NCBI RefSeq assembly: GCF_014203395.1
Contig: NZ_JACHIW010000001.1
Coordinates: forward strand, 4,695,501 to 4,759,500
Direction: 5' to 3'
DNA length: 64,000 nt
From: Saccharopolyspora phatthalungensis
GTDB lineage: Bacteria; Actinomycetota; Actinomycetes; Mycobacteriales; Pseudonocardiaceae
The notes beneath the pieces are model-generated. The model saw nothing but the letters and a program-made list of their open reading frames with translations. It ran no database searches and had not been told where the DNA came from. The position numbers and the translations under genes are program-made. Every line of letters begins with the position of its first letter. Position 1 is the stretch's first letter. This document shows positions 4,520-32,800 of this stretch, one piece after another.

Positions 4520-6334
4520 CTCTCGAAGTCGCCGAAAGACGTCACGAAGAGCCTTAGGGACTTCTTCTGGCTTGTCCAGCTGAGCTGCGAGTCCGAGCAT
4601 CATCGCTGGCTTGCCTCGGGGGGCGTCCTCGCTGTGCTCCCGCAACATTTCGAGCACATCGGCGCTGAACTTTCCATCGCGCAGGGCTTTGAAGTCCTCG
4701 GGGGTCCAGTCGTGATCGCGTGGCCAGACAGTGTTCGCGGTGCGTGCCCACAACTCGTCACTGAAGAGTTCTTCAAGTTCTCTGTGGCCGTGCTCTTTGC
4801 CTAGCATCACGACCACTTCCTCATCGCGGTTGTCGAATGTGGCCTTCAGTCGGTCGGTTCGGAACATCTTGTTCGTAGATTCGCTGTCGGCGTCGACCAT
4901 GAGCAAAACCGATCGACCATGCTTGAACAGATAGCGCGCTAGATGTAGCGCGCCTTCGTTGTTGCCACATGCCCAGAGCGCCACACCTGCTGCCTGCGGT
5001 GAGAGGTCTTCCGAAAGGTTGAACAAGATTGGGATTGCAAGTTGCTCGGATTCGCCCTCGACGGCGAGGAAGCACCGTTCATGCAACAGAACCGAGTTTC
5101 GCAGGCCCACTGCCGCTGCCATGATGCCGAGGTGGCGGTCGAAATCCGCGTGCGTGCCGCTGCCAAGGCGCTCCATGACGGTACGCCGGTCGTCGTCAAG
5201 ACGAAGGAGCACGACATCATGTATATCGACGCCGTCGATCAGGTTCATCGAATGCGTAGCCACGACGACGTTCACGCGGTCCGCCGCGCTCTGCTGTCGG
5301 ATAAGCCGCATGACCTCGCGCTGGAAGTGGTAGTCAAGATGCGTGTCTGGCTCGTCGTAGACAACGATGACCTGCAGTGGAGGCTCGTGCTCTTCAGTCT
5401 CCTCTGTGTCCTTGGGCTGGTCCAGCAAAAAGTCGCTGGTCGTCTCCCAGACCGCAATTGAAATGCGGCGTGAGCTACCGAGTCCGGACCGATCTAGTCT
5501 AACCGACTCGCCTGATGATCGTTCAAGCCGAAGAGGCGTTGAGCGAAGCTGTGGTGTGAGGCTCACACTAGGATCGATGTCGACAGAGGCTATGTCTCCA
5601 CACCGCTCGACGATGTGGTCAGCCAACGGTTTCGCCTCAATCTTCAACCATTCCTGGACGTCGGTCTCAAGCTCACGTACCCGCTCTTGTACGGCGTCTT
5701 GGGCCACATAATCCTTAAGCCGCAACGAGAGCAACGATTTGATCGCGGCTTCCGGCTCCAGAGATCGCCCTTCGAACACCGCCAATTGTGGTAGTCGCGT
5801 TGTCAAGCCGGACGGGACACCAACCCAGCCGGCTTCATTGGAGTGATCTTTGGCGTATGCACGGAGAGCCGCCAATAGATACGGCTTGGTGGGCTTCTCG
5901 GGGCGCACCTCGAACTGTGTCAGCAGTTCTTTTAACTCTTGAACGGACTTGCTCGAAAGGTCTCGTAGCTCCTCGTCATCAGGTACGGGGGCCCACATCT
6001 CATATCGAGGGGCGAGTTCAGCGTCGACGCTTCGCCGCACGCGGAGCTCAGCCGGGAGATCGAATGTTTCCCGCTCCCAGGAGTCCAAGCGGAAATCGCC
6101 GATGACTTCGGTGAGAGAACATCGACTGCCCGTCTCGCCGCCGCCGTACGCCCGATCGTCGTCGGTCAGGGGGTACTCGCCAAGCAGGAACGCGAGGGCG
6201 TCCAGCGCCGTGGTCTTCCCGCCATCGTTCGGGCCTGCAAGGATCGTGGGACTACTGATGGGTATTTCCGAGACGTCGGCAAGGGAGCGAAAGCCGCGTA
6301 CGGAGTACTTCTCAAGATGCACTGACGGGACCAT
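4508..6334 (-). CDS. OLD-family ATP-dependent nuclease (ABC ATPase plus TOPRIM)
   Basis: A 608-residue protein. The ATPase half has Walker A GPNDGGKT (34-41), a signature-like GLGSSRR (284-290), Walker B VVYDEPD (324-330) and a switch histidine in VATHS (361). The C-terminal half is a TOPRIM nuclease: VEGESE with the first acidic ligand (E426), then LLMVDADS (D481, D483) and a downstream HRELEELF. This is the architecture of OLD/GajA proteins, which nick or cleave DNA and act against phages. No GajB-type UvrD helicase lies beside it, so it is more likely a solitary (class 1) OLD than Gabija. It is co-oriented with, and downstream of, the Wadjet operon and the broken gene at 6769-7453. Confidence 0.88.
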   Translation of the reverse strand: MVPSVHLEKYSVRGFRSLADVSEIPISSPTILAGPNDGGKTTALDALAFLLGEYPLTDDDRAYGGGETGSRCSLTEVIGDFRLDSWERETFDLPAELRVRRSVDAELAPRYEMWAPVPDDEELRDLSSKSVQELKELLTQFEVRPEKPTKPYLLAALRAYAKDHSNEAGWVGVPSGLTTRLPQLAVFEGRSLEPEAAIKSLLSLRLKDYVAQDAVQERVRELETDVQEWLKIEAKPLADHIVERCGDIASVDIDPSVSLTPQLRSTPLRLERSSGESVRLDRSGLGSSRRISIAVWETTSDFLLDQPKDTEETEEHEPPLQVIVVYDEPDTHLDYHFQREVMRLIRQQSAADRVNVVVATHSMNLIDGVDIHDVVLLRLDDDRRTVMERLGSGTHADFDRHLGIMAAAVGLRNSVLLHERCFLAVEGESEQLAIPILFNLSEDLSPQAAGVALWACGNNEGALHLARYLFKHGRSVLLMVDADSESTNKMFRTDRLKATFDNRDEEVVVMLGKEHGHRELEELFSDELWARTANTVWPRDHDWTPEDFKALRDGKFSADVLEMLREHSEDAPRGKPAMMLGLAAQLDKPEEVPKALRDVFRRLRELAG

Positions 6335-16747: not shown

Positions 16748-18073
16748 TTAGGGGCTGGGTGATGTTGTCAAGTCCTCGGTGAGGAGGTTTATGTCGAGGG
16801 TGGCTTTGTAGCTGGTTCTGTCGATGCGCAGGCTTTGGTGTGCGTAGCGGGAGAGTGGGCGTTTGACGGCACGGGGGCTGACTCGCAGGCGGCGTGGGGG
16901 CAGCAGGTTGTCCAGGACGTGGCCTCCGATGGTGCCCACGAGATCGATCACGGTGCCGGTGATGACATTGGCGGCCTGGACGAGTTGGTCGCGGGCGGTG
17001 TGCAGAGCGGTGGTGAAGCTGGCCCGGTCGGGATCGACTCCGGCCGCCTCGGCGGCGTCGGTGATCGCGATCCGCAGGACCTGGTAAACGGTGAGCAGGG
17101 CATAGATCTCCTGGGCGATGCCGTCGGGAGTCTGGCTGCGCAGCACGCGGCTGCCCAGGATGGTGGATTTCAGTTCCAGGTAGGCGGTTTCGATCTCCCA
17201 CCGCTGGTGGTAGAGAGTGATGATCTCGCCGGCGGGGTAACGGCGGTCATCGCAGAGGGTGGTGGCCAGCCGGTAGATCTCGCTGCGGCGCCCGGCGGTG
17301 GTGGCGATGGTGATCTCGCAGGTGATGACGCGGACCTTCAGGCCGCCGAGTACCGAGAGGAACGACCCGTCCGGGTAGCGGTGCAGGACCGGGGTTTTCC
17401 GGTTGCGTTTGAGCCGCACCAGCACATGCGCGCCGGTACCGGTGATCGCCGCCAGCAGCCTCTGGCAGCCGAACATCCGGTCGCCCAGTACCAGCATCCC
17501 GGTGCCCATGCTGGGCACCAGTTGCCGGGCCAGGGTGGTCTCGCCCTGGCTGCGGGGCCCGAAGACCGCATCGAGGATCGTGCGTGTCCCGCAGGCCACC
17601 AGCGCGGCCACCCGCACGTGCGGATAGCCCGCCTTACGGTGCGTGCCGCCGTGTTTGCCCAGCCAACCGGTGTTGGCGGGAGTGTCGGGCACGTCCATTG
17701 TGGTGCCATCGATCGCGGTCACCAGCAGGTTGCGCCACCGGGTGCCGGCGGTGCGGGGCCCTGCCGCGGGGCCCCGCAGCAGGTCGAACAACGCCTTCAA
17801 CGGCGCCACACCAAGGCGTTGACGGGCAAGCCTGATCGCGGTCGCGCTCGGACGCGGCACCCTCAGCCCGTCGAGCCCGGCGACCAGTCTGGCCCACACA
17901 CCCCGAAATCCCAGACCTTCGAACAATCCCGCCGCCAGCAGCAGGTACACCACGACCCGCGACGGGAGTTTGCGCACCCGCGCCTGGACCCGCCCGCAGC
18001 CGGCCAGCACGTCATCGACCATCTCAAACGGCACGATCCGGGTCAGCTCGCCCAGATGGCCGGGCGCGACCAT
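16748..18073 (-). CDS. IS4-family transposase
   Basis: 441 residues from ATG 18073. After an N-terminal IS4-type domain (GELTRIVPFEMVDDVLAGCG) come the DDE residues: AIDGTTMDVPDT, LGDRMFGC, and the YREK-like signature YHQRWEIETAYLELK. The frame appears intact. Its start codon directly touches the left end of the IS3 element (18074), so the native upstream sequence and one terminal repeat of this element have been lost or displaced. Expression may be absent. It lies upstream of, and in the same orientation as, the jet operon. Confidence 0.88.
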   Translation of the reverse strand: MVAPGHLGELTRIVPFEMVDDVLAGCGRVQARVRKLPSRVVVYLLLAAGLFEGLGFRGVWARLVAGLDGLRVPRPSATAIRLARQRLGVAPLKALFDLLRGPAAGPRTAGTRWRNLLVTAIDGTTMDVPDTPANTGWLGKHGGTHRKAGYPHVRVAALVACGTRTILDAVFGPRSQGETTLARQLVPSMGTGMLVLGDRMFGCQRLLAAITGTGAHVLVRLKRNRKTPVLHRYPDGSFLSVLGGLKVRVITCEITIATTAGRRSEIYRLATTLCDDRRYPAGEIITLYHQRWEIETAYLELKSTILGSRVLRSQTPDGIAQEIYALLTVYQVLRIAITDAAEAAGVDPDRASFTTALHTARDQLVQAANVITGTVIDLVGTIGGHVLDNLLPPRRLRVSPRAVKRPLSRYAHQSLRIDRTSYKATLDINLLTEDLTTSPSP

Positions 18074-18084
18074 TGAGGTTCCCC
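18074..18084. repeat. left terminal inverted repeat of IS3 (outer part)
   Basis: TGAGGTTCCCC, identical to the outer bases of the right end read on the other strand. The inner half of the repeat begins at 20020, after the intron inserted inside it. Confidence 0.7.
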
Positions 18085-18671
18085 GTGTGTCCTGAACGTA
18101 AAGGAGAGCTCGTGTTGTAGGTGGAGCTGTCTGGATCGGTGCTGCACGGATGATGAAGGTATGGCCCTTCGGAGTCGCCCTGCGGAGGGAGGCTCCAAAC
18201 CGCCTCATGCTGCGTTGGCTAAAGACCGTCGTGGTGAGCGATGAGGAAACGGCATCGGAAGAGATGTCAGGTGGGGACCGGAAAGACGAACGCGAGTGAA
18301 CCACTGCTGACGTGTCGAAACTCATGAGATGGCATCGAAACCGGGGCGTGGGGAAAGTCTCGGGATGAGCCTGGCGGGAGTCCGCTTACTGGCCAGGTGG
18401 TGTCCGGCATGGAGGTGGCGTGAGTCCGGTCTGCGGCGTCCGTGTGGAACAGGAGAAGGCGTGCCTGGAAACGCCCTGTCCCGGTTGGGCGGGGGAGAGG
18501 GAGCGTCTCGAACGGCCCGAAGTCGTGAGGGATTGAGTACCGTCGCCGGGCGCGCTGGCGGACCGGCCTGTAGTAGTGCTGAAGCCCTTGTAATGGGGTG
18601 GAGCGAAGGGGCCGGGCTGTCTGTGGCTGGTGTTCGTTCGATCAACCGGGCTTATGCCTGGGAGGAGTCGT

Positions 18672-19934
18672 GTGGACGAGCTGAAATCACCGGGCAAGCC
18701 GTTCGAAATCTCGAAGCAGGCGGTCTGGGAGGCGTATCAGAAGGTGAAGGCCAACGAGGGCGCGCCGGGCGTGGACGGGGTCTCGCTGGAGGACTTTGAG
18801 AAGGATCTGAAGGGCAACCTTTACAAGGTCTGGAACAGGATGTCCTCGGGCAGTTACTTTCCGCCTCCGGTGCGGGCGGTGGAGATACCGAAACCGCATG
18901 GTGGCGAATCGAGAATCTTGGGCGTGCCTACCGTGTCCGATCGGATCGCGCAAACGGTCGTGGCCGGAGTCCTGGAGCAGAAGGTCGAGCCGATCTTCCA
19001 CCCGGACTCCTATGGTTATCGGCCGGGCCGATCGGCCCTGGATGCGGTCGCAACGTGCCGGAGGCGCTGCTGGAAGACCGACTGGGTGATCGATTTGGAC
19101 ATCCGGAAGTTCTTCGACACCGTGCCGTGGCATTTGATCATCAAGGCGGTGGAGGTCAACACCGACCTTCCGTGGGTGGTGCTGTATGTGCGGCGGTGGC
19201 TGGAAGCACCGCTGCGACTGCGCAATGGCGCCTTGCGGCAACGCGACCGTGGAACCCCGCAGGGTTCGGCGGTTTCGCCCGTGCTCGCGAATCTGTTCCT
19301 GCACTACGCGTTCGATGTGTGGATGGCCCGGGAGTTCCCGGACGTCGCCTTCGAGCGGTATGTGGATGACGCGGTGGTGCACTGCGTCAGCGAACGCCAA
19401 GCACGCCGTGTGCTTCAGGCGATCAAGGGGCGTATGGTCGAGGTCGGGTTGGCGTTGCATCCGGACAAGACCAGGATCGTCTACTGCCGGGACGGAAAGA
19501 GGCGTGGCTCGTACGAATACACCTCCTTCACGTTCCTGGGGTTCACGTTCCGGACTCGGGGAGCGCGCAGCAGGGATGGGCGGATGTTCAGCTCGTTCCT
19601 GCCCGCGATCAGCAAGGACGCCCTGAAGAAGATCAGCGGTGAAGTCCGCCGTTGGCGACTGCACCGGCGCACGAACCTGTCTGAAGCGGACCTTGCCCGA
19701 GCGATCAATCCGATCGTGCGAGGTTGGATGAACTATTACGGCGCCTTCTATCGGTCGGCGCTGTATCCCCTCCTGGCGCGTATCAACGCCTACCTGGTGC
19801 GCTGGCTTCGCGAGAAATTCAAACGGTTCCAGGGACGCAAAGCGGCCCGAACGGCGTGGGAGACAGCCGTGGCCAACAGGCCCCGGTTCTTCGCACACTG
19901 GACTTGGGTCACTTGGGCCCCGGAAGTCTGGTGA
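18672..19934 (+). CDS. ltrA: group II intron reverse transcriptase/maturase (intron 1)
   Basis: 420 residues. RT blocks in order: YGYRPGRSALDAV, WVIDLDIRKFFDTV, RGTPQGSAVSPVLANLFLHY, and the catalytic box FERYVDDAVVH, where Val replaces the usual Ala of YADD. The maturase X domain follows (RGWMNYYGAFYRSALYPLL, VRWLREKFKRF) and the protein ends without an HNH endonuclease. GTG 18672 has GGGAGGAG upstream; an earlier GTG at 18630 is less likely. It would splice and mobilise its own intron. Close in sequence to the maturase at 22887. Confidence 0.9.
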   Translation: MDELKSPGKPFEISKQAVWEAYQKVKANEGAPGVDGVSLEDFEKDLKGNLYKVWNRMSSGSYFPPPVRAVEIPKPHGGESRILGVPTVSDRIAQTVVAGVLEQKVEPIFHPDSYGYRPGRSALDAVATCRRRCWKTDWVIDLDIRKFFDTVPWHLIIKAVEVNTDLPWVVLYVRRWLEAPLRLRNGALRQRDRGTPQGSAVSPVLANLFLHYAFDVWMAREFPDVAFERYVDDAVVHCVSERQARRVLQAIKGRMVEVGLALHPDKTRIVYCRDGKRRGSYEYTSFTFLGFTFRTRGARSRDGRMFSSFLPAISKDALKKISGEVRRWRLHRRTNLSEADLARAINPIVRGWMNYYGAFYRSALYPLLARINAYLVRWLREKFKRFQGRKAARTAWETAVANRPRFFAHWTWVTWAPEVW

Positions 19935-19946
19935 CCAAGACAGCAA

Positions 19947-19980
19947 GAGCCGTGTAAATCGAGAGGTTTACGCACGGTTC
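19947..19980 (+). ncRNA. group II intron 1 domain V
   Basis: A 34-nt hairpin from GAGCCGTGTAAAT through a GAGA tetraloop to ACGGTTC, the conserved catalytic domain V, placed just after the maturase stop and before domain VI. Confidence 0.85.
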
Positions 19981-20073
19981 TGTGAGAGCCGGGGGCTGAA
20001 ACGCCCCCGGCTACTCGACCGGGGTAGTGGACACCACGTTGGCAGGATTGGTTCCTGCTGGAAGGATGTCCTC

Positions 20074-20358
20074 ATGCCTCCTCGTAAGCGTCGGTCGTTC
20101 ACGGCCGAGTTCAAGGTCGAGGCTGCGCATCGTGTGATCGATTCCGGCCGCACGATCGCTGAAGTAGCTCGTGAGTTGGGTCTCAACGACGGGTTGCTGA
20201 ATAACTGGGTCAAGGATGAGCGGCGCAGGATCGCCGCGGCCGAGGTCCAGGGCGAGAAACCTTTGGAGGCGGCGGAGCGGGCCGAGTTGCTGCGGTTGCG
20301 CAGACAGGTCGCCGAGTTGGAGAAGGACAACGCGTTCCTGGTAAAAGCCTCGGCGTAC
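20074..20358 (+). pseudogene. IS3 orfA, first part (HTH transposase subunit)
   Basis: 95 codons starting MPPRKRRSFTAEFKVEAAHR with the helix-turn-helix RTIAEVARELGLNDGLLNNW and a leucine-zipper end LLRLRRQVAELEKDN. The coding sequence stops at a codon boundary after KASAY where intron 2 starts, and resumes at 24233 with FAAMQKKPNGSI and a stop. If the intron is spliced, a normal 107-residue OrfA results. An ATG at 20074 follows GGAAGGATG-type leader sequence. Confidence 0.85.
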
Positions 20359-21387
20359 GTGTGTGTCCTGAACGGAAAGGGGCTGCCGGAGTAGGACGGT
20401 AGTTTCCTGATGGTGCTGCACAAGTGATGAGGGTTTCTGGCCCCTCGGAGTCGCCTGGCGGAGGGAGGCTCCAAACCGCCTCCGGCTGCGTTGGCTGAAG
20501 ACCGTCGTGGTGAGCGCAGGAGGAAAAGGCGTCCAGGAGGGCGTCAGGTGGGGATCGGGAAGGCGAACGCGAGTGAACCACTGCTGAAGCGTCGAAATGC
20601 TTGGATGACATCGAAACCGAGGTTTGTACGCACCGAGGGATGAGCCTGGCGGATGCTCCGCTTGCTGGCCAGGTGGTGTCCGGCGTGAAGGTGGCGCGAG
20701 CCCGATCTGCGGGACTTGTGTGGAACAGGAGAAGGCGCACAAGGATTGTCTTGTGTGCCGACGGACCGGTTCGTAGTGTGCGCCGGGCGGCGCAGAGAGC
20801 TTGCTGGTGAAAGTCCAGCCGGACCGGCCCCAAGCGGGGTCCGTAGCCGAAGGCGGGGGTAATGCCTCGCTGGGCGCTGTTGGGAGGTGGATGTGATGGC
20901 CTTGGGCTGTTGGGTCGTGCTGACCAGTGGCGCAGGACAGGGCGCTCACCGTGAGGTGGGGTCTGAAGGGTTTGAGGCGAAACACCGAGCCGTAGCCGAA
21001 TATGGCGAACCGGTCGGCCCGATCCAGGTGATGCCGAGCCTGCACTATGGGGGCGAAGGAAATACTTGGGGCATCTGGACACAACAAGGTGTGTGCGGGC
21101 GGCGCGGTGGGAAAGTTCTCTGCGTTACCCCGGGAGGTCTCGTACGGTCCCGCTCGACGGGGCTGGGTAGCTGGGCGTATAAGCCGCGAGGTGAAATCGC
21201 TGGTGATGCCGTGCGAGAAGTCGGAGTGATCCACGGTACTGAGGAACCAAGGAACAACAGAAACCTTGGGATCGTCGTGGTGGTGCGACGGCGGGCGGTG
21301 ACTCAAAAGGCATCGACCTGGGGAAGGGATCACGGTGGAAATGGCGAGTCGGGGTGTGGTGTCGAGTGAGTAGGTGGCGCCGGACTG

Positions 21388-22704
21388 ATGGTTGCTGAGG
21401 CAATGACCGAGGTGGCGTTGGCTGAGGAGACTCGGAATCACGCAACGGTGGGCCAGGTAGGAAAGAAACGTATGCAGGTGCGGAAGGCGCACTCGCTGAT
21501 CGGTCAGATCCACGATCCACGCAATGTGGTGCGGGCGTGGGAGCGTGTGCGAGCGAACCGAGGTGCGGGTGGTGTGGATCGGGTCAGTATTGACCGGTTC
21601 GACTGCGAGCAGGATCGCTATCTCACGGTATTGCGACAGCGGCTGGCTGATGGGCGTTATCGTCCGCAGCCGGTGCGTCGGGTGGAGATCGATAAGCCAG
21701 GATCGACGGCCAAACGTCCACTGGGGATTCCTACGGTCATGGACCGGGTATGCCAGCAGGCGATACGGCAGGTGCTGGAGCCGATTTTCGAGCCGACGTT
21801 CTCCGAGGTCAGCTTCGGGTTTCGTCCGAAGCGGTCGGCGCACATGGCGATGCGTCGGATCTGGGGACAGTTGCAGGCGGGTGGGAGATGGATCGTTGAC
21901 GCGGACATCGCCGATTTCTTCGGGACGATCTCGCATGACAGGCTCGTATCCCTTGTGGCGGAACGAGTTGCCGACGGTAAAGTGTTGAGTCTGATACGTC
22001 AGATTCTCACGGCCGGAGCGCTGCGGGACGGCGTCTACGAAAGCACGGTCGCGGGCACGCCTCAGGGCGGAGTCATTAGTCCTTTGCTCAGCAATATTTA
22101 TCTGCACGTTTTCGACGAGCGGATGGAGCGGGCTGGATTCCAGGTGACCAGGTATGCCGATGATTGGCTGGCAGTCTGCCGGACTCGGGAGGAAGCGGAG
22201 CGGGCGCTGGCGAGCGCCTGTGCGGTGCTGGAGGAACTGGGTCTGCGGATTCATCCGGAGAAAACCAGAATCGTGCACGTCAGTCAGGGGTTCGAGTTCT
22301 TGGGCTACAAGATCGGCTTGGGCAAGGGTTTGCGCTTCAAACAAGGTGGTATTGGTTTGTATGCGATTCCCCGGCAGCAGTCGATCGACCGGTTCAAGGA
22401 CAAGGTGCGCGCGTTGACACGGCGGCGCATCGCGGTGCCTCTGGAAGAGTTGATCGACATGCTGAACCCGGTGATTCGAGGATGGGGCATGTATTACCGG
22501 CGCGCGAACGTGCGCAGGTTGTTCAATCGACTCAACATGTGGATCGTGCGACGAATCTGGGGATGGCGGTTCAAACGATGGCGAAACGCCGGATGGCGCA
22601 CGCTGCCGGAGAAACGCCTCTACGGTGAATATGGCCTGGTCAACCTGCTGCAACTGATTCCCAGCATGCGCGATTACTACCGCCAGAAGGGCTATACCCA
22701 TTGA
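21388..22704 (+). CDS. ltrA: group II intron reverse transcriptase/maturase (inner intron 3)
   Basis: 438 residues: SFGFRPKRSAHMAM, WIVDADIADFFGTI, GTPQGGVISPLLSNIYLHV, and the canonical catalytic box TRYADDWLAV, then HPEKTRIVH, the thumb, and X-domain helices RGWGMYYRRANVRRLFNRLN ending LIPSMRDYYRQKGYTH. No HNH domain. Sequence and length differ from the other two maturases here. It supports splicing of the inner intron, which may have to leave before the outer intron can fold and splice. Confidence 0.9.
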   Translation: MVAEAMTEVALAEETRNHATVGQVGKKRMQVRKAHSLIGQIHDPRNVVRAWERVRANRGAGGVDRVSIDRFDCEQDRYLTVLRQRLADGRYRPQPVRRVEIDKPGSTAKRPLGIPTVMDRVCQQAIRQVLEPIFEPTFSEVSFGFRPKRSAHMAMRRIWGQLQAGGRWIVDADIADFFGTISHDRLVSLVAERVADGKVLSLIRQILTAGALRDGVYESTVAGTPQGGVISPLLSNIYLHVFDERMERAGFQVTRYADDWLAVCRTREEAERALASACAVLEELGLRIHPEKTRIVHVSQGFEFLGYKIGLGKGLRFKQGGIGLYAIPRQQSIDRFKDKVRALTRRRIAVPLEELIDMLNPVIRGWGMYYRRANVRRLFNRLNMWIVRRIWGWRFKRWRNAGWRTLPEKRLYGEYGLVNLLQLIPSMRDYYRQKGYTH

Positions 22705-22737
22705 GAGCCGCTTGCGGGAAAACTGCACGAGCGGTTC
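22705..22737 (+). ncRNA. group II intron 3 domain V
   Basis: A hairpin from GAGCCGCTTGCG through a GGAAAA loop to CGAGCGGTTC, overlapping the maturase stop region and followed by a GC-rich domain VI hairpin ending at 22790. Confidence 0.8.
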
Positions 22738-22886
22738 GGCAGGGCGGGCGGAGGTAGCGGACCCTGGTCCGCCGCCTCCCCCGACCCGACAGTGAGGAAG
22801 CTTCTGTAACGGGAGTGGAGCGAAGGGGCCGGGTCGTTCGTGGCTTTGTTCATTCGATCAACCGGATGTTCTCCGGGAGGAATGGT

Positions 22887-24146
22887 GTGAACGGGTTGAA
22901 ATCACCGGGTAAGCCGTTCGAGATCTCGAAGTGGCTGGTAGAGGAGGCTTGGGAGAAGGTCAGGGCGAACCGGGGCGCACCGGGTGTGGACGCGGTGGAC
23001 ATCGCGGAGTTCGAGCAGGACCTTCTGGGTAACCTGTATAAGATCTGGAATCGGATGTCCTCGGGCTGCTACTTCCCTCCGCCGGTGCGCATGGTGGAGA
23101 TACCGAAACAGCATGGTGGCGTCCGGGTATTGGGCGTACCGACTGTCGGTGATCGCGTGGCGCAGACCGTGGTAGCGATGGTGCTGGAAAGGAAGGTCGA
23201 GCCGATCTTCCATCCGGACTCCTATGGTTACCGGCCAGGGCGCGGGCCGATCGATGCGGTCGGGGCGTGCCGGGTGCGGTGCTGGAAGTACGACTGGGTG
23301 ATCGATCTCGACATCAAGTCGTTCTTCGATTCGGTGCCGTGGGACCTGATGCTCAAAGCGGTGGACTCGGTGTGCGATCTGCCTTGGGTGCGACTGTATG
23401 TCAAGCGGTGGCTTGCGGCCCCGCTGGAAAACACCGACGGCGTCCTGGTGGAACGCACGAAGGGAACGCCGCAGGGTTCGGCGGTCTCGCCTGTCCTGGC
23501 GAACCTGTTCATGCACTACGCGCTCGATACGTGGCTGGATCGGAACTTCCCGCAGGTCACCTTCGAGCGTTACGCGGATGACGGTGTCGTGCACTGCCAC
23601 AGCCTTGATCAGGCAAGAGCGGTCCTGGCCGCGTTGGAGCAGCGCATGAACGAAGTCGGTCTTGACCTGCACCCCGACAAGACGCGGATCGTGTATTGCA
23701 AGGACGCGAACCGGAAAGGCTCCTTCGAGCATGAAAAGTTCACCTTCCTGGGATATGAGTTCCGCGAACGCACCGTGGATGGCCGCAACGGACTTTTCCG
23801 GAGTTTTTCACCGGCGGTCTCGCTTGCGGCGCTGAAAAGGATGGGGAAAGTGGTGCGCCGCTGGCGCATTCACCGGTGGGTGCGGGGAGACGCCCGAGAG
23901 CTCGCGGACTGGATCAACCCGGTCGTGCGAGGATGGATGCAGTACTACGGGGCCTTCAATAAGTCGGCCCTTCGTCCCCTTCTCAAACGGATCAACGCCT
24001 ACCTGGTCCGCTGGCTGCGAGAGAAATACCGGAAACTGCGGAAGAGCTGGTCAGTGACGCTTCGCGCGTGGTGGAACGGGGTAGAAAGATCGCCTCGCTT
24101 GTTCGCGCATTGGGCGTGGGTGACCGAACCTTCCCGAATCTGGTGA
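22887..24146 (+). CDS. ltrA: group II intron reverse transcriptase/maturase (outer intron 2)
   Basis: 419 residues, plainly a relative of the intron 1 enzyme: KSPGKPFEISK near the start, YGYRPGRGPIDAV, WVIDLDIKSFFDSV, GTPQGSAVSPVLANLFMHY, catalytic FERYADDGVVH, and X-domain RGWMQYYGAFNKSALRPLLK. The canonical YADD is kept. No HNH domain. GTG 22887 is preceded by GGGAGGAA; an upstream GTG at 22815 is open but unsupported. It should act on the outer intron. Confidence 0.9.
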   Translation: MNGLKSPGKPFEISKWLVEEAWEKVRANRGAPGVDAVDIAEFEQDLLGNLYKIWNRMSSGCYFPPPVRMVEIPKQHGGVRVLGVPTVGDRVAQTVVAMVLERKVEPIFHPDSYGYRPGRGPIDAVGACRVRCWKYDWVIDLDIKSFFDSVPWDLMLKAVDSVCDLPWVRLYVKRWLAAPLENTDGVLVERTKGTPQGSAVSPVLANLFMHYALDTWLDRNFPQVTFERYADDGVVHCHSLDQARAVLAALEQRMNEVGLDLHPDKTRIVYCKDANRKGSFEHEKFTFLGYEFRERTVDGRNGLFRSFSPAVSLAALKRMGKVVRRWRIHRWVRGDARELADWINPVVRGWMQYYGAFNKSALRPLLKRINAYLVRWLREKYRKLRKSWSVTLRAWWNGVERSPRLFAHWAWVTEPSRIW

Positions 24147-24158
24147 CCAGAGCGACAA

Positions 24159-24192
24159 GAGCCGTATGACGAGAGATCGTCACGTACGGTTC
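24159..24192 (+). ncRNA. group II intron 2 domain V
   Basis: 34 nt from GAGCCGTATGACGA through a GAGA loop to CGTACGGTTC, nearly the same as intron 1 domain V with compensating stem changes; a domain VI hairpin (CCCGGGGG / CCCCCGGG) follows. Confidence 0.85.
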
Positions 24193-24232
24193 TGTGGGAG
24201 CCCGGGGGTGAAAATCCCCCGGGCCACCCGAC

Positions 24233-24271
24233 TTTGCCGCGATGCAGAAGAAACCCAACGGTTCGATCTGA
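24233..24271 (+). pseudogene. IS3 orfA, second part
   Basis: Thirteen codons including the stop (FAAMQKKPNGSI) completing orfA after intron 2. The TGA at 24269-24271 overlaps the ATG of orfB (24271), the usual IS3 arrangement in which a -1 frameshift can fuse OrfA and OrfB. Confidence 0.75.
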
Positions 24272-24993
24272 TGGCCAAGTACGCCGGCCCCGACACGCTC
24301 GCCGAGACCGGCACCGACACCAACAGCGGTGGAGGCAAGGCCGGGCGGTTCTCGGTGCGTCGCATGGCGCGACTTCTGGGCGTGTCGGCCTCGGGCTACT
24401 ACGCGCATGTCAAACGCGCGGCGGCTACCGTGCTGACACCACGCGCACAGCGCCGGGCGGACCTCGAGGTGAAGATCACCCAGATACACAAGGAGTCCGG
24501 CGGCACCTACGGGTCACCCCGCATCACCGCCGAACTGCGTGCGCGGGGCGAGGTGGTCAGCGAGAAGACCGTCGCCAAGATCATGGCCGGCATCGGGATG
24601 GAGGGCATCAGCCCGCGCACATTCAAGGTGAAAACCACCGTGGCCGACCCGCATGCGTCGTTCCCACCGGACCTCATCGACCGGGAATTCGACCAAGGCC
24701 GCCTGGACGCGGTGTGGCTGACCGATATCACCTACCTGTCCTGCGGTGAGGGCGAGATGTATCTGTGCGCGGTCCGGGACGGTCATTCCCGGAAAGTGCT
24801 CGGCTACAGCATCTCCGAGCACATCGGCTCGGAGATGGTCACCGAGGCCATCGACGCCGCTGTCGCTACCCGAGGCGGCCGGTGTCGTGGCACGATCCTG
24901 CATTCCGACCGTGGCGGGGAGTACACCGGTGGCCTGACCGTGCAGGCGTGTTTCCGGCACGGGCTGCGCCGGTCGATGGGCGCGACCGGGATC
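24271..24993 (+). pseudogene. IS3 orfB, first part (DDE transposase catalytic subunit)
   Basis: 241 codons from MAKYAGPDTLAETG. It includes the HTH_21 region (VRRMARLLGVSASGYYAHVK), YGSPRITAELR, and the first two catalytic acids in VWLTDITYL and LHSDRGGEYT. The frame is cut after RSMGATGI by the Tn554-like insertion; the glutamate of the triad is stranded 3.4 kb away at 28410. OrfB therefore cannot be made as an active enzyme unless the insertion leaves. Confidence 0.85.
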
Positions 24994-24999
24994 TCCCTC

Positions 25000-25013
25000 T
25001 TAACCGGCTAATG
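25000..25013 (+). repeat. left terminal repeat of the Tn554-like element
   Basis: TTAACCGGCTAATG; partner at 28383-28396 in inverse orientation with a single A/T difference. Confidence 0.7.
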
Positions 25014-25048
25014 GTTGTGTTTGTCCAGGTCAGCGACACGCTGCGGTA

Positions 25049-26179
25049 GTGGTACTTGCCGGTTGGCTGCGTTCATGGCTGGTACGTCTGTTCCTTATGG
25101 GTATCGAGGCCGGTCTTCGGCTTGAGGAACGGGACGGTGGCTGGGCGTTGGCCGGGCCGGCCGCGTCGCGGTTCGGGTTGGTGGATGAGTACCTGGCGTA
25201 TTTGGCCGATCGGAACTATTCACCGAAGACCGTGCGTGCCTATGGATACGACGTGTTGGCGTTCTGCCGGTGGCTCGTCGTTGAGGAGCAGCCGTTGCCG
25301 GAGGTGACCACGGAGGTGTTGTTGCGGTTCTTGCGTGCCTGCCGGGAGGCTACGGTTGCGGGCAGGCCGGGGCCGAACGTGGTCACGTTGTCGGGCCGTC
25401 GGATGGATCAGTATGCCCCCACGACGATCAATCGGCGGTTGGCGGCGATCTCGGGTTTGTTCGCGTTCGCCGCGATGCGGGATCCGGACGTGAAAAACCC
25501 AGTCCCCAGAGGCAAGGAGGCCCGCTGGCTGGTAGCGGGTGAGCGCAGCGGGATGCTCGCGCACACCGTCCGTCGGCCGAAAACCCGTTCGTCGCTTCGG
25601 CTCCGGGAGCCTCGTCGTCTGCCCACGGCGCTGTCGCAGTCGGATGCGGCGGAGCTTCTGGCGAGTTTTCATGCGTGGCGGGACCGGGCGATCGCGGGCT
25701 TGATGCTGTATTGCGGGCTGCGTTCCGCCGAGGTGCTGGGCCTGGACGTCGTCGACGCCGATATCGGCGGCCGATGGCTGCGGGTGGTCGGTAAGGGCCA
25801 GCGGGAACGCCGGGTCCCGCTGGATGCCGACGTCGCTTCGGTGATCCAGGTGTATTTGCTGGCCGAGCGGCCCGAATCCGCAAGCGCCCGTCTGTTTCTC
25901 GTGGCCAAGGGGCCGAACCGGGGCCAGCCGTTGACTGCGGCCGGGTTGCGCACGATCTTCCGCTATCACCGTGGGCTTACCGGCGTCGTCGGCGGGCATC
26001 CTCACGCGCTGCGACACACCTTCGGCACCGCCCTGGCCGAAGCGGGGGTCGATCTCGCGGTGATGCAAGCGTTGCTCGGACACGCTCATGTCGACACCAC
26101 CGCCCGTTACATCCATTTGGCTCCGGCGCATGTGAAAGCAGAATTCGATGCCGCTCGCGATCGCATCCGCTCCCAGTGA
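25049..26179 (+). CDS. tnpA: tyrosine recombinase, TnpA-like
   Basis: 376 residues. An N-terminal SAM-like core-binding domain (LADRNYSPKTVRAYGYDVLA) precedes the catalytic domain with the expected pentad: Arg in CGLRSAEVLGL, Lys in GKGQRERRVPL, HALRH, then LGHAHVDTTARYIHL giving His and the nucleophilic Tyr. Length is typical of TnpA. GTG 25049 is the first start; an ATG in frame at 25097 (MGIEAGL) is an alternative. It overlaps the next gene by 32 bp. Confidence 0.88.
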   Translation: MVLAGWLRSWLVRLFLMGIEAGLRLEERDGGWALAGPAASRFGLVDEYLAYLADRNYSPKTVRAYGYDVLAFCRWLVVEEQPLPEVTTEVLLRFLRACREATVAGRPGPNVVTLSGRRMDQYAPTTINRRLAAISGLFAFAAMRDPDVKNPVPRGKEARWLVAGERSGMLAHTVRRPKTRSSLRLREPRRLPTALSQSDAAELLASFHAWRDRAIAGLMLYCGLRSAEVLGLDVVDADIGGRWLRVVGKGQRERRVPLDADVASVIQVYLLAERPESASARLFLVAKGPNRGQPLTAAGLRTIFRYHRGLTGVVGGHPHALRHTFGTALAEAGVDLAVMQALLGHAHVDTTARYIHLAPAHVKAEFDAARDRIRSQ

Positions 26180-28052
26180 TGATCTGCACGCCGCCTACTT
26201 GGACTACCTGCGGCGGACCGGACGCGGAAACACCGCCTACACGGGGGCGGCTCGGGTGTTCTTCCAGCGCTGGCCAGACCCCGGGCAGTGGGCGGTGCAG
26301 CCTTTGGAGACCCGCTTGTCGGCGGGAAGCTCGACCCGGCCGATCATCACGTTCCTGATGCTGCATCGGGTGCTGCAACCGGGCTATGACTATCTGCTGG
26401 AACGCAAGCTTTCCAGCATCTGGAGGGAGGTCAAGGATTCACCGCTGGGTCCGGATCTCGATCGGTTCATGGCCGCGGCCGCCGAGCTCGGGTTCACCGA
26501 ACGGGTCCGGTTCGCCACCGGTTCCCAAGTTCCGGTCCGGCTGCTGATCCAGACTGGACGGTCGCTGGATCTGCTCACCGTGGCCGATCTGGACGAGTTC
26601 CGGGCTGCGTGCCAGGAGCGGGAGACGCGAACTGGCAAGGGGCACAGGCACTATCTGGCGTCGGTCAGCAATGCCCAACGGGTGCTGTTTTACTTGGGAA
26701 TCGTCGATGAGCTGCCACGCTCGGGCGGGCCGGTCCCGTTCGCCGACCGGCTCGCCGACCTGCGGCCGCCGATCCGCGAGACGGTGATCGCCTATCTGGA
26801 ACGCAAGCGGGCGACCTGTCAGCCCAAAACGGTGTCGGCCTTCGCGACCCGGCTCAAGCACTTCGGGGTCTTCCTGGCCGAGGTCGATCCCGGACTCGGC
26901 TCCATCGCCGAGCTGGATCGCCGCAAGCACATCGAGCCCTACCTGAGGTCGCTGGTCGACGCGGTCAACCCGAAAAACGATCAGCCGATCACCGTCGCGG
27001 ACCGATCCCGGCGAGTGCTCGCGCTGATGGGATTCCTGACCGATATCACCGAGTGGGACTGGCCCGACGCGCCACCCCGCAAGCTGATATTCCGCGACGA
27101 TGTCCCCAAACTCCCGCACACGCTGCCCCGCTACCTGCCCCTCGACGTCGACCGCCGACTCACCGCAGTGCTGACCGAACACCCCGGCAACGAACTCGCC
27201 GCAGCCGCCCTGCGACTGCAACGCAGCTGCGGACTGCGGATCGGGGAACTGCTCGACCTCGAGCTCGACTGCGTCCACGAAGTCCCCGACCACGGCAGCT
27301 GGCTGAAAATCCCGCTCGGCAAACTGGAGACCGAGCGCATGATCCCCATCGATGACGACATCCTCGACCTAATCGACCACATCACCGCCATCCGCTCCCA
27401 CGGACGGCCGATGCCGCACCCTCGCTACCGGCGCCGGGCCCAGTTCCTGTTCACCCACCACGGCCGACGCCTCTCCCAAAGCGCGGTCCGTCACGAACTC
27501 GACCGCGCCGCCCAGTCCGCGGGACTCGACCACCTCACCCCGCACCAGCTCCGCCACACCTACGCCACCGCCCTGGTCAACGCCGGCGTCTCACTCCAAG
27601 CACTGATGGCGCTACTTGGCCACGTCTCCGCCGAGATGAGCCTGCGCTACGGTCGGCTGTTCGACACCACCGTCCGAGCCGAATACGAACGAGCCCTCGA
27701 CCTCGCCAAACAACAGGCCCGCACCCCCACCACCGGCACGATCAGCCTGCCACTGGCCGACATCACCGGCGGAGCCGACTGGAAGAACACCCCATTGCTC
27801 AAATCCCGTCTGGCCGGCGGGTTCTGCCTCCGCGCACCCGCCCAAGGCGCCTGCGCCTACGCCAACATCTGCGAGCATTGCCCCAGCTTCCACACCGAAC
27901 CCAGCTCGCTGCCCATCCTGGCCGCCCAACGCGTCGACGCCGAAGCACTCGCCCGCGACGCCGAACAACGAGGCTGGATCGCCGAAGCCCAACGCCACCA
28001 ACGACTCATCGCCCGACTCGACATTCTGATCAACGAGGCCCAAGCCGGATGA
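26148..28052 (+). CDS. tnpB: tyrosine recombinase, TnpB-like
   Basis: 634 residues, longer than ordinary integrases as usual for TnpB. Catalytic residues: CGLRIGELLDLELD (Arg), LGKLETERMIPI (Lys), HQLRH, and LGHVSAEMSLRYGRL (His and Tyr). After the catalytic domain a Cys-rich stretch (FCLRAPAQGACAYANICEHC) may bind zinc, followed by a helical tail. ATG 26148 lies inside the end of tnpA; the stop overlaps the tnpC start as ATGA. Works with TnpA and TnpC in target-specific transposition. Confidence 0.88.
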   Translation: MPLAIASAPSDDLHAAYLDYLRRTGRGNTAYTGAARVFFQRWPDPGQWAVQPLETRLSAGSSTRPIITFLMLHRVLQPGYDYLLERKLSSIWREVKDSPLGPDLDRFMAAAAELGFTERVRFATGSQVPVRLLIQTGRSLDLLTVADLDEFRAACQERETRTGKGHRHYLASVSNAQRVLFYLGIVDELPRSGGPVPFADRLADLRPPIRETVIAYLERKRATCQPKTVSAFATRLKHFGVFLAEVDPGLGSIAELDRRKHIEPYLRSLVDAVNPKNDQPITVADRSRRVLALMGFLTDITEWDWPDAPPRKLIFRDDVPKLPHTLPRYLPLDVDRRLTAVLTEHPGNELAAAALRLQRSCGLRIGELLDLELDCVHEVPDHGSWLKIPLGKLETERMIPIDDDILDLIDHITAIRSHGRPMPHPRYRRRAQFLFTHHGRRLSQSAVRHELDRAAQSAGLDHLTPHQLRHTYATALVNAGVSLQALMALLGHVSAEMSLRYGRLFDTTVRAEYERALDLAKQQARTPTTGTISLPLADITGGADWKNTPLLKSRLAGGFCLRAPAQGACAYANICEHCPSFHTEPSSLPILAAQRVDAEALARDAEQRGWIAEAQRHQRLIARLDILINEAQAG

Positions 28053-28348
28053 CCACCACCAGCACCCTGGGCCGCGTCGAACGCGCCTGCGTCCAGCTCC
28101 ACCACGACGGCCACGCCGTCACCTTCACCGCCGTCGCCGCCCACACCGGGCTGGGCCGCACCACCCTCTACCGCAACCCAACCCTGCGCGCCGTCATCGA
28201 GGAACACCGATCTCGATCCGCCACCAGCGGCACCCTCACCAGCCTCACCGACGAGATCACCACCCTCCGCGCCGCCCTCGACGCCCTCGCCACCCGAGTA
28301 CGCCGCCACGAAGAACAACTCCGACGCCTCACAGCTCGAAACGACTGA
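28049..28348 (+). CDS. tnpC: TnpC-like small protein (DUF6262-type)
   Basis: 99 residues, MTTTSTLGRVERACVQLHHD..., with a helix-turn-helix-like segment (VTFTAVAAHTGLGRTTLYRN) and a C-terminal coiled coil (LTDEITTLRAALDALATRVR). This matches the small third protein of Tn554-like elements, which sets orientation and efficiency of transposition. Four-base overlap with tnpB. Confidence 0.8.
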   Translation: MTTTSTLGRVERACVQLHHDGHAVTFTAVAAHTGLGRTTLYRNPTLRAVIEEHRSRSATSGTLTSLTDEITTLRAALDALATRVRRHEEQLRRLTARND

Positions 28349-28396
28349 AAGCGTTAACCGGCCAACAACCGGAAACCACGATCATTAGCCGGATAA

Positions 28397-28597
28397 TGCT
28401 GGGACAACAGCCCTGCGGAATCGTTCTGGTCCACGTTCAAACACGAGCACTACTACCGGAATACCTACGCCACACAAGCGGAACTTGTTGTCACAGTTGA
28501 CAATTGGGTTCGCTTCTACAATGCTGTCCGGCGGCACTCCGCGATCGGGATGCTCAGTCCCGACGACTACGAGAACTCACTTCGAGCGGCTGCCTGA
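28397..28597 (+). pseudogene. IS3 orfB, last part
   Basis: Continues orfB from CWDNSPAESFWSTFKHEHYY to the stop at 28595-28597, with the third catalytic residue (Glu in AESFWSTFK) and the usual ending RRHSAIGMLSPDDYE. It has no start of its own. Confidence 0.85.
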
Positions 28598-28610
28598 ATC
28601 CCCGTAAACC

Positions 28611-28639
28611 CCCTGTCCACCACTCGGGGGGGAACCTCA
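28611..28639. repeat. right terminal inverted repeat of IS3
   Basis: CCCTGTCCACCACTCGGGGG then GGAACCTCA; its reverse complement matches the left end (outer part 18074-18084, inner part from 20020) with a few mismatches. Confidence 0.7.
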
Positions 28640-28649
28640 GGTAGTCCCT

Positions 28650-28812
28650 CAGGCGTTTCAATGATCGTGTCAAGCCGCTTGAGCTTGGGCGGTGTGATCT
28701 GGAGCGTGCGGCCGTCGCACAGGAGCGCCCAGATGACGTCGACCAGGCGGCGCGAGAGCGCGATCAACGCCCTGGTGTGCGGTTTCCCTTCGCAGCGTTT
28801 GGCCGGGAAAAA
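28650..28812 (-). pseudogene. IS110-family transposase C-terminal relic
   Basis: Minus-strand codons read KRCEGKPHTRALIALSRRLV then DVIWALLCDGR, the typical C-terminal end of IS110/IS116 transposases. Nothing upstream continues the gene. It directly flanks the right end of the IS3 nest. Confidence 0.65.
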
Positions 28813-32277: not shown

Positions 32278-32800
32278 CCAGGCTGTGGTCTCGTCGTAGA
32301 GGGTGCCGGTTTTGAGGCAGCCGTGGAGGATGCCGACGAGGCGGTTGGCGAGTTGGCGCAGGGCGGCGTTGTGGCTGGAGCCGCGGGCTCGTTGCCGGTC
32401 GTAGTAGGCGCGGGCGCCTGGCGAGCGCAGCAGCGCGTTGAACGCCTGGGTCATGAGGGCGTCGATGAGCCGGTCGTTGTGGACGAAGCGGGCCAGGGCG
32501 ACCTTCTTCTTGCCCGACGCGCGGGTGATCGGGGAGGTGCCCGCGTAGTTCTTGCGGGCTTTGGCGCTGGCGTAGCGGTCGGGGTCGTCGCCGAACTCTG
32601 CGAGCACCCGGGCGCCGAGGACCGGCCCCAGACCGGGCTGGGACAGGATGATCTCTTGCCACGGCTGAAGCCGTCGGCATTTCGGCGCGTTCCGTTGGCC
32701 GCTGGCCCGGCTCGCCGGCAGGTGGCAGGCATTGGCGTGGCGGGTCCAGGTTTCGTTGACCTTGGTAACGAGTCAGGCAGCGGCCAGTAACGCCGCCGAA
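32278..32800 (-). pseudogene. IS110-family transposase relic (C-terminal part)
   Basis: Clear Transposase_20 segment: AEFGDDPDRYASAKARKNYA, GTSPITRASGKKKVALARFV, ALRQLANRLVGILHGCLKTG, TLYDETTAW. Upstream codons (beyond about 32607) continue in a different frame. Its last codons run straight into a tyrosine-recombinase N-terminus, so its own stop is lost. Confidence 0.75.

Follow-up and report, generated by a model that had tools for sequence, protein, structure and literature searches.

An IS3-family element of Saccharopolyspora phatthalungensis opened at three places, and the target choice of a Tn554-like transposon

How does a single insertion sequence (IS) come to be opened at three places by other mobile elements, and do these places follow a rule? 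The question is raised by a 64-kb stretch of Saccharopolyspora phatthalungensis DNA (G000:C1:4695501-4759500, hereafter the window; the genome measures 8.54 Mb in 6 contigs), in which an IS3-family element at window positions 18074-28639, here named IS3-A, holds two group II introns, a third intron nested in the second, and a transposon resembling Tn554. The nest is ordinary in its parts, all of which are known kinds of element. IS3-A has very probably been colonised by three site-specific invaders, two of them from lineages that appear to live on other mobile elements. What makes the locus interesting is rather that the Tn554-like unit and intron 3 each choose one kind of target repeatedly; as we read the sequence, both seek out catalytic sequence that is conserved in other mobile elements.

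IS3-A and the Tn554-like unit in its orfB

The pieces of IS3-A and of the Tn554-like unit are listed below (window positions; + is the forward strand).

18074-18084 (+): outer part of the IS3-A left terminal repeat (TGAGGTTCCCC); its last 6 bases, TTCCCC (18079-18084), are the intron-binding sequence 1 (IBS1) of intron 1
20020-20358 (+): rest of the left repeat and orfA (20074-20358); 100% in 3 genome copies; Pfam HTH_Tnp_1, NF033516 positions 1-82
20353-20358 (+): GCGTAC, IBS1 of intron 2, within the orfA piece
24233-24993 (+): last part of orfA, then orfB as far as the codon preceding the C-W-D-N-S-P-A-E motif; NF033516 99-309 of 369
24994-28396 (+): Tn554-like unit, 3403 bp, left end TCCCTCTTAACCGGCTAATG, right end CATTAGCCGGATAA; bounded by natural empty sites
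25049-26179 (+): tnpA-like tyrosine recombinase, 376 amino acids (aa), start uncertain; Pfam Phage_integrase
26148-28052 (+): tnpB-like long tyrosine recombinase, 634 aa; Pfam Phage_integrase at 336-504
28049-28348 (+): tnpC-like small protein; Pfam DUF6262 on 28052-28348
28397-28639 (+): rest of orfB from TGC TGG GAC AAC (C-W-D-N..E), and right terminal repeat; Pfam rve_3/rve_2, NF033516 311-369 of 369

The membership of the window copy in the IS3 family rests on its proteins, its repeats and its sister copies. Pfam recognises HTH_Tnp_1, rve, HTH_21 and rve_3, and the NCBIfam IS3 profile (NF033516, 369 positions) is matched on three pieces (orfA 20074-20358 at 1-82, orfB 24280-24993 at 99-309 and 28397-28594 at 311-369), the two short pieces scoring below its whole-protein cut-off. 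Since the match ends at 309 and resumes at 311, the Tn554-like unit breaks the profile between these positions. Terminal inverted repeats are present (TGAGGTTCCCC.. and ..GGGGAACCTCA). At the window copy a 3-bp target duplication is lacking (its flanks are CAT and GGT), so that its outer flanks have probably changed since; sister copies show the duplications GTG/GTG (locus L004) and GCT/GCT (left of L005 and right of L006). The orfA-orfB part (339-bp and 758-bp pieces, 20020-20358 and 24233-24990) lies contiguous at C2:1630135-1631231 and C1:3808791-3809887 with 99-100% identity, and both of these other copies in the genome carry the Tn554-like unit and neither of them the introns. Outside IS3-A, a transposase-like frame of another IS type abuts the left end (16748-18073, reverse strand, ATG at 18073-18071), and to the right 28640-28790 resembles, by eye only, the C-terminal end of an IS110-type transposase.

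For the Tn554-like unit, natural empty sites (..GGGAT[C/T/G] joined directly to TG[C/T]TGGGACAAC..) were found in 8 of 24 IS3-A loci, three of these eight belonging to one genome (G123). The unit therefore spans exactly 24994-28396 and lacks a target duplication. Its invariant left bases TCCCTC and its inverted-repeat ends (TTAACCGGCTAATG and CATTAGCCGGATAA) are derived from the element. Features of the Tn554 family are found in the tnpA and long tnpB recombinases with Phage_integrase domains and in the insertion without target duplication; the label tnpC-like is tentative and follows the published gene order. No cargo gene was seen in the window unit.

Five near-identical copies of the unit are present in this genome (a sixth, L037, is a fragment), and each of the five interrupts the orfB of an IS3-family element at the same codon, just before the catalytic-Glu motif, the right flank reading C-[WYH]-D-N-x-x-x-E. 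Their hosts are three different IS3 elements; the left flanks of IS3-B and IS3-C are so unlike that of IS3-A (35% and 23% identity) that the five copies cannot be one inherited insertion. Two loci are chimeras around inverted copies of the unit, L005 (C1:3.81 Mb) with IS3-A on the left and IS3-B on the right, and L006 (C1:0.44 Mb) with the reverse. Given that GCT stands outside both IS3-A halves, they probably stem from one IS3-A insertion that was split by recombination between the inverted copies, and the sequence points to a probable inversion of ~3.4 Mb, from C1:0.44 to C1:3.81 Mb. The IS3-B halves are flanked by TCA and CGA, with no matching duplication, and the inversion is thus one that we infer.

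The Tn554-like unit inserts at a conserved site

Relatives of the window TnpA were collected from 297 genomes of the same family (7 at E<=1e-60, own included), from 396 genomes across the phylum (5 matching at E<=1e-45, own included), from a scan of named genomes (40 loci) and from 29 plasmid records, 8 of which were examined. Both flanks of each Tn554-like unit were translated in a fixed frame, Pfam was run at E<=0.01 on left and right flank separately, and the host types in the tree were labelled from this flank reading, via Pfam or motif. The TnpA tree holds 61 rows (53 different), or 58 without three Xer outgroups, own copies included. These outgroups (L135, L136 and L138) are distant TnpA matches of the own genome that resemble chromosomal Xer recombinases and were used for this purpose alone; L137 was not used. 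Also left out of the tree were duplicates (L057, L059 and L060, of L062, L070 and L097), partial loci (L037, L097, L100 and L101), loci without a flank to read (L066, L068 and L083), a near-copy of L080 (L079), one locus below the 230-aa limit (L096, with IS3 read on the right) and the short loci L139-L143, replaced by L144-L148. The Pfam scan left out pieces shorter than 20 aa (right flanks of L056, L093, L062, L079 and L090, left flank of L082), the left flank of L145, the right flank of L096, and L004, the IS3-A flanks of which duplicate those of the window.

A DDE transposase was recognised on at least one side in 48 of the 58 TnpA rows (IS3 in 40, IS256-type in 5, and IS21, IS481/IS21-like and IS701 in 1 each). 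In terms of labels, 38 rows are IS3, 2 are IS3 on the right only, 4 are IS256, and a second Mutator type, IS21 and IS481/IS21-like have 1 each; the remaining 11 have no label, and among these L099 matches IS701 on its left flank (NCBIfam). Pfam matches were obtained for 32 of 46 left flanks (27 rve, 5 Transposase_mut) and 35 of 40 right flanks (31 rve_3, 4 Transposase_mut). With the flanks scanned singly, left rve matches end at 97-101 of 102 and right rve_3 matches begin at 13-15 of 67, and in Transposase_mut hosts the break falls between 337 and 338-344 of 379. NCBIfam assigns right flanks to IS3 (window, L063), IS21 (L095), IS481/IS21-like (L147) and IS256 (L130, and L061 weakly), all below the whole-protein cut-offs, as fragments must be. 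The IS256-type hosts L130-L132 show a left flank ending in ..IWSNNP and a right flank starting with [I/T/K]ERLN[K/R]E; right flanks of the IS21 and IS481-like hosts start with PESKGKVE or PEGRGKIE.

The tree places all 38 IS3 rows together with the 2 one-sided IS3 rows and 3 unlabelled ones in a 43-row clade (support 93/94, below the tool's mark of 95), and the 4 IS256 rows form a clade of their own (100/100); long branches meet in this tree, as the tool warns, and its deeper joins are unsure. In G280, a genome of the same genus, IS3 lies on both sides in 4 of 5 copies and on the right only in 1 of 5, and the TnpA rows of the four two-sided copies are identical in the tree, yet their hosts differ.

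Against this background it might be argued that the shared position is simply inherited, the unit having entered one ancestral IS3, after which the IS3::Tn composite spread and diverged. A loaded IS3-A is indeed present at two sites with 3-bp duplications (GTG/GTG at L004; GCT left of L005 and right of L006), and with a transposase in trans it would in principle be movable. Nonetheless, almost identical units occur in different IS3s of one genome, and relatives occupy IS256-type, IS21 and IS481/IS21-like genes, which one inherited insertion cannot yield. We consider this explanation improbable, and spread of a loaded IS3 as a unit was rejected for the clade, though not for IS3-A alone.

The DNA of the site adds to the picture. 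Among 35 right flanks of IS3 hosts (31 distinct) the hexamer touching the element occurs in 25 forms, and the next six bases are GACAAC in 23. Such a pattern fits what may be a tyrosine-recombinase site, in which a 6-bp spacer is free to vary and the neighbouring arm is recognised. IS3-A copies of this genome have TGCTGG as the right hexamer, as do most intact relatives.

Overall, we think it probable that a clade of actinobacterial Tn554-like transposons consists of specialised hunters of DDE transposases, which would use the conserved codons before the catalytic Glu as attachment site (attB), switch among unrelated families (IS3, IS256-type, IS21, IS481-like and perhaps IS701) at the equivalent spot, and disarm and ride insertion sequences.

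Several points weigh against this proposal. All searches were seeded with one TnpA, hence the clade is sampled around that protein. No transposase target was recognised in 10 of the 58 TnpA rows; readable flanks in which none was recognised are the left ones of L076, L087 and L089 and the right ones of L088 and L090, with no NCBIfam transposase match for L076, L087 and L088. Five loci (L145, L146, L148, L144 and L134) have no readable flank, clear end or call, or have an uninterrupted neighbour (at L134, by eye, the tnpA/tnpB pair lies beside an uninterrupted IS630-like frame), and L052 and L092 have IS3 on the right only. Five of the 14 left Pfam misses (L055, L071, L085, L098 and L127) were rescanned, and their IS3 call was made by eye only, from an S-[MIV]-G-x-x-G motif; two of the 5 right misses (L005 and L075) were likewise called by eye. 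One left flank matched E1-E2_ATPase and one TetR_C_15 (Pfam). The IS3-A copies of G280 carry AGCTGG, intact relatives TGCTGG or TGTTGG, which could be a donor footprint, so that the spacer model is not proven. In each host transposase family the break is placed just before the residue taken to be the catalytic Glu. Finally, the classic staphylococcal Tn554 targets radC, whereas the targets here are mostly DDE transposase genes, which is why we speak of Tn554-like units and not of Tn554. Some of the exceptions to a transposase target may be due to later recombination, as with the halves of L005 and L006.

As a separate observation, the Tn554-like right end at L077 (Nocardia sp. BSTN01) lies near 4571, ~1 kb further from tnpA than usual, and this unit may carry cargo.

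Group II introns and the order of events

The introns of IS3-A comprise the following features.

18085-20019 (+): group II intron 1, 1935 bp, in the left terminal repeat; Rfam D1D4-2 and domain V; uninterrupted repeat in L005 and L004
18350-18355 (+): exon-binding sequence 1 (EBS1) of intron 1, GGGGAA; 6/6 to IBS1
18675-19934 (+): intron 1 reverse transcriptase (RT)/maturase, start codon uncertain; Pfam RVT_1 and GIIM, TIGR04416
20359-20777 (+): group II intron 2, 5' part; Rfam D1D4-2
20626-20631 (+): EBS1 of intron 2, GTACGC; 6/6 to IBS1
20778-22790 (+): group II intron 3, 2013 bp, nested in intron 2 between CGTAGT and AGTG; Rfam; empty site in L030 and in intron 1
21044-21049 (+): candidate EBS1 of intron 3, ACTATG; pairs with CGTAGT, one G-U pair
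21388-22704 (+): intron 3 RT/maturase, 438 aa; Pfam, TIGR04416
22791-24232 (+): group II intron 2, 3' part, with RT/maturase at ~22881-24146 and domain V at 24157-24232; Rfam, Pfam, TIGR04416

In all three introns the RNA domains, domain V included, are above the Rfam gathering score, and an RT/maturase frame is present (Pfam RVT_1 and GIIM; TIGR04416 above cut-off). The left repeat is uninterrupted in the C1:3808791 copy (TGAGGTTCCCC directly followed by CGGGG) and in the C2 copy (TGGGGTTCCCC followed by CGGGG, one substitution), which fixes the ends of intron 1 at 18085-20019. Likewise, the contiguous IS3-A pieces of the C1 and C2 copies show that intron 2 is absent there and that its ends are 20359-24232; its empty site (..TCGGCGTAC joined directly to TTTGCC..) was found in 11 of the 24 IS3-A loci (1 being the own C2 copy and 3 from G123), and the search word was not matched in the remaining 13. 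The RTs of introns 1 and 2 are 66% identical and both introns are Rfam D1D4-2, so that they are one kind of intron and IS3-A contains three kinds of invader.

EBS1-IBS1 pairs are complete (6/6) for intron 1 (GGGGAA/TTCCCC), intron 2 (GTACGC/GCGTAC) and the host intron at L004 (TCAAGT/ACTTGA), the EBS1 hexamers lying at an equivalent place in the 5' domain and complementing the six exon bases before the intron. At introns 1 and 2 such pairing indicates real retrohoming and argues against misassembly. Among 30 scanned loci that hold related introns, an EBS1-type match was seen by eye in 5 besides intron 1 (L152, L156, L160, L170 and L172); L159 and L162 pair incompletely, and for many loci no end was found.

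Intron 3 has three complete copies in the genome (relative to the window, L029 is identical and L004 differs by one base), and all three lie inside another group II intron. The hosts are intron 2 of the window and the L004 intron, both D1D4-2 (sharing 78% identity over the 5' part and 68% over the 3' part), and the L029 intron, which is D1D4-4. L030 is an uninterrupted sibling of the L029 host (99.8-99.9% identical) in which the site, GTAGT joined to AGTG, is intact, and this filled and empty pair sets the ends of intron 3 at 20778-22790; intron 1 also carries the empty site. For the candidate EBS1, the site AGTAGT at L029 would cost one pair. Near-identical inner introns in different outer introns speak for recent separate insertions, and intron 3 may thus be a second apparent specialist, a group II intron that sits within other such introns. 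A search of the 297 family genomes (E<=1e-100) yielded one other genome, G191, where locus L049 (G191:C212) has a 5' fragment of intron 3 (bases 1-1293 of 2013, 86% identical) after CGTAGT, with D1D4-3 sequence upstream. This fragment fits such specialisation less well, as it continues into another RT frame, on a contig of 3.4 kb, and it was for this reason not counted as a fourth nested copy. L049 could represent an additional nest, a recombination product or a chimeric contig.

In another genus, an IS3-A relative (L179, G226:C1:7818500-7826500) carries a group II intron within orfA, at a distance of eleven bases from the window intron 2 site, and this intron holds a 2.7-kb insert with frames that by eye resemble IS3 and IS110 transposases. 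The earlier note on this DNA had called the stacking unusual; the G226 relative, whose orfA also holds an interrupted group II intron, speaks against this.

One could then regard the whole locus as simple nesting in mobile-element-rich 'junk' DNA, IS3s being abundant and tolerated and their positions not recognised. Mobile-element islands do gather insertions, the orfA intron of G226 with its further insert arose independently, and some relatives of the unit lie outside any recognised transposase. However, random insertion would scatter, whereas most readable flanks place the Tn554-like break at a single codon, and the sites of introns 1 and 2 are matched by 6/6 EBS1-IBS1 pairs; we regard this explanation as very improbable, even if tolerance may explain why such sites persist. 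That the stacked arrangement is an assembly product with wrongly joined repeats is hardly credible, for although most parts are repeats in the genome and the window IS3 lacks a target duplication, the 6/6 pairing holds at introns 1 and 2, natural empty sites coincide with every boundary, and the genome is in 6 contigs.

The picture of an IS3 opened at three places, with one insertion itself nested, was thus borne out to the precise boundaries by uninterrupted natural copies in this genome and its relatives. The search for such copies that the earlier note had proposed turned up empty sites for intron 1, intron 2 and the Tn554-like unit; together with the EBS1-IBS1 pairing, these indicate that, as far as sequence can tell, the nest is no assembly product. 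Its count of four mobile lineages needs correction: introns 1 and 2 are of the same kind (D1D4-2, RTs 66% identical), which leaves three kinds of invader. The recurring targets of the Tn554-like unit and of intron 3 had escaped the earlier note. As to the order of events, it is certain that IS3 came first, and the later arrival of intron 3 relative to intron 2 is well supported, since an almost identical intron 3 occupies three different host introns; both steps had been proposed. An entry of the Tn554-like unit before the introns is favoured by its presence in both other copies of the IS3-A orfA-orfB part, which lack the introns, but is not proven, because the unit is site-specific and may have entered each IS3-A copy separately.

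Elsewhere in the window, 32560-32641 (forward strand) matches the Rfam family Ms_AS-4, an actinobacterial small RNA family, at 71.4 bits.

Proposed mechanism and known systems

We propose that introns 1 and 2 would retrohome into the left terminal repeat and orfA through EBS1-IBS1 RNA-DNA pairing, and intron 3 into intron 2 at the short site GTAGT/AGTG, common to different group II intron classes. The cargo-less Tn554-like tnpABC transposon has inserted into orfB past the second catalytic Asp and ahead of the catalytic Glu, and this placement at a conserved site is shown; its tyrosine recombinases (with TnpC) would presumably read the DNA of the conserved codons as attB. Strand exchange would then take place at a 6-bp spacer, for which conservation is not needed, the right one being host sequence and the left one a fixed, element-derived hexamer. 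Since these codons are held constant by the catalysis of the host transposase, one recombinase could use many IS elements, which are abundant, dispensable and themselves mobile, and subclades may specialise on IS3, IS256-type, IS21 or IS481/IS21-like transposases. Every such insertion breaks its host transposase. In IS3-A, splicing could restore orfA in RNA only; intron 1 sits in the terminal repeat, where splicing cannot repair the DNA, and orfB DNA stays broken as well, so that we do not expect this copy to function any longer as an autonomous element.

The target rule of the Tn554-like clade appears new. A systematic DDE-transposase target for such transposons was not found described among the matches listed (titles and abstract starts), and no literature joining Tn554, the IS3 family and tyrosine recombinases was found, with subscription journals and preprints outside the scope of both searches. 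The rule would supply a target for a transposon class that we found described only by its genes, and an attachment site in conserved catalytic codons of abundant insertion sequences would explain its multicopy state. It also offers a case, open to experiment, of one mobile element keeping others in check, in which codons that a transposase cannot change can turn into a landing site. For annotation it carries a warning, namely that some split IS3 'pseudogenes' in actinobacteria may be Tn554-like insertions.

Actinobacterial Tn554-related elements were described by Van Houdt et al. in 2012, with the remark that multicopy genomes might contain a number of similar attB sites (PMC3414803). These elements and the Tn554 family resemble the present unit in having two tyrosine recombinases, one of them long, a third small gene (in those elements TnpC-related) and, in some genomes, several identical copies (PMC3414803), and Tn554 has imperfect terminal inverted repeats and no target duplication (PMC10214605). 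The present unit differs from that family in that no cargo gene was seen and that insertion is in DDE transposase genes. Strand-biased circularising integrative elements (SEs) share with it two tyrosine recombinases plus helpers, a 6-bp spacer and a site preference, and SE-6945, reported to insert in insJ of IS3 in E. coli, is an isolated precedent (PMC10214605). Nonetheless, SEs have four core genes and are reported mainly for Gammaproteobacteria (PMC10214605), and here, unlike in the SE rule given there, each lineage keeps its left hexamer unchanged, with the right one depending on the host. RIT elements are likewise tyrosine-recombinase units, and one type is reported inside the transposase gene of a Tn6049-related transposon, but they have three recombinases and those composites are almost identical, at one genomic location (PMC3414803). 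For intron 3, the closest likeness is with the twintrons of Thermosynechococcus elongatus, TeI3 in TeI4, where identical inner introns occupy one site in diverged outer introns, and for which insertion at conserved sites of other mobile elements was proposed as a spreading route (PMC2882425). In contrast to TeI3/TeI4, the inner intron here encodes an RT itself, is placed upstream of the RT gene of its host and enters hosts of two Rfam classes, with a third, weak, in G191.

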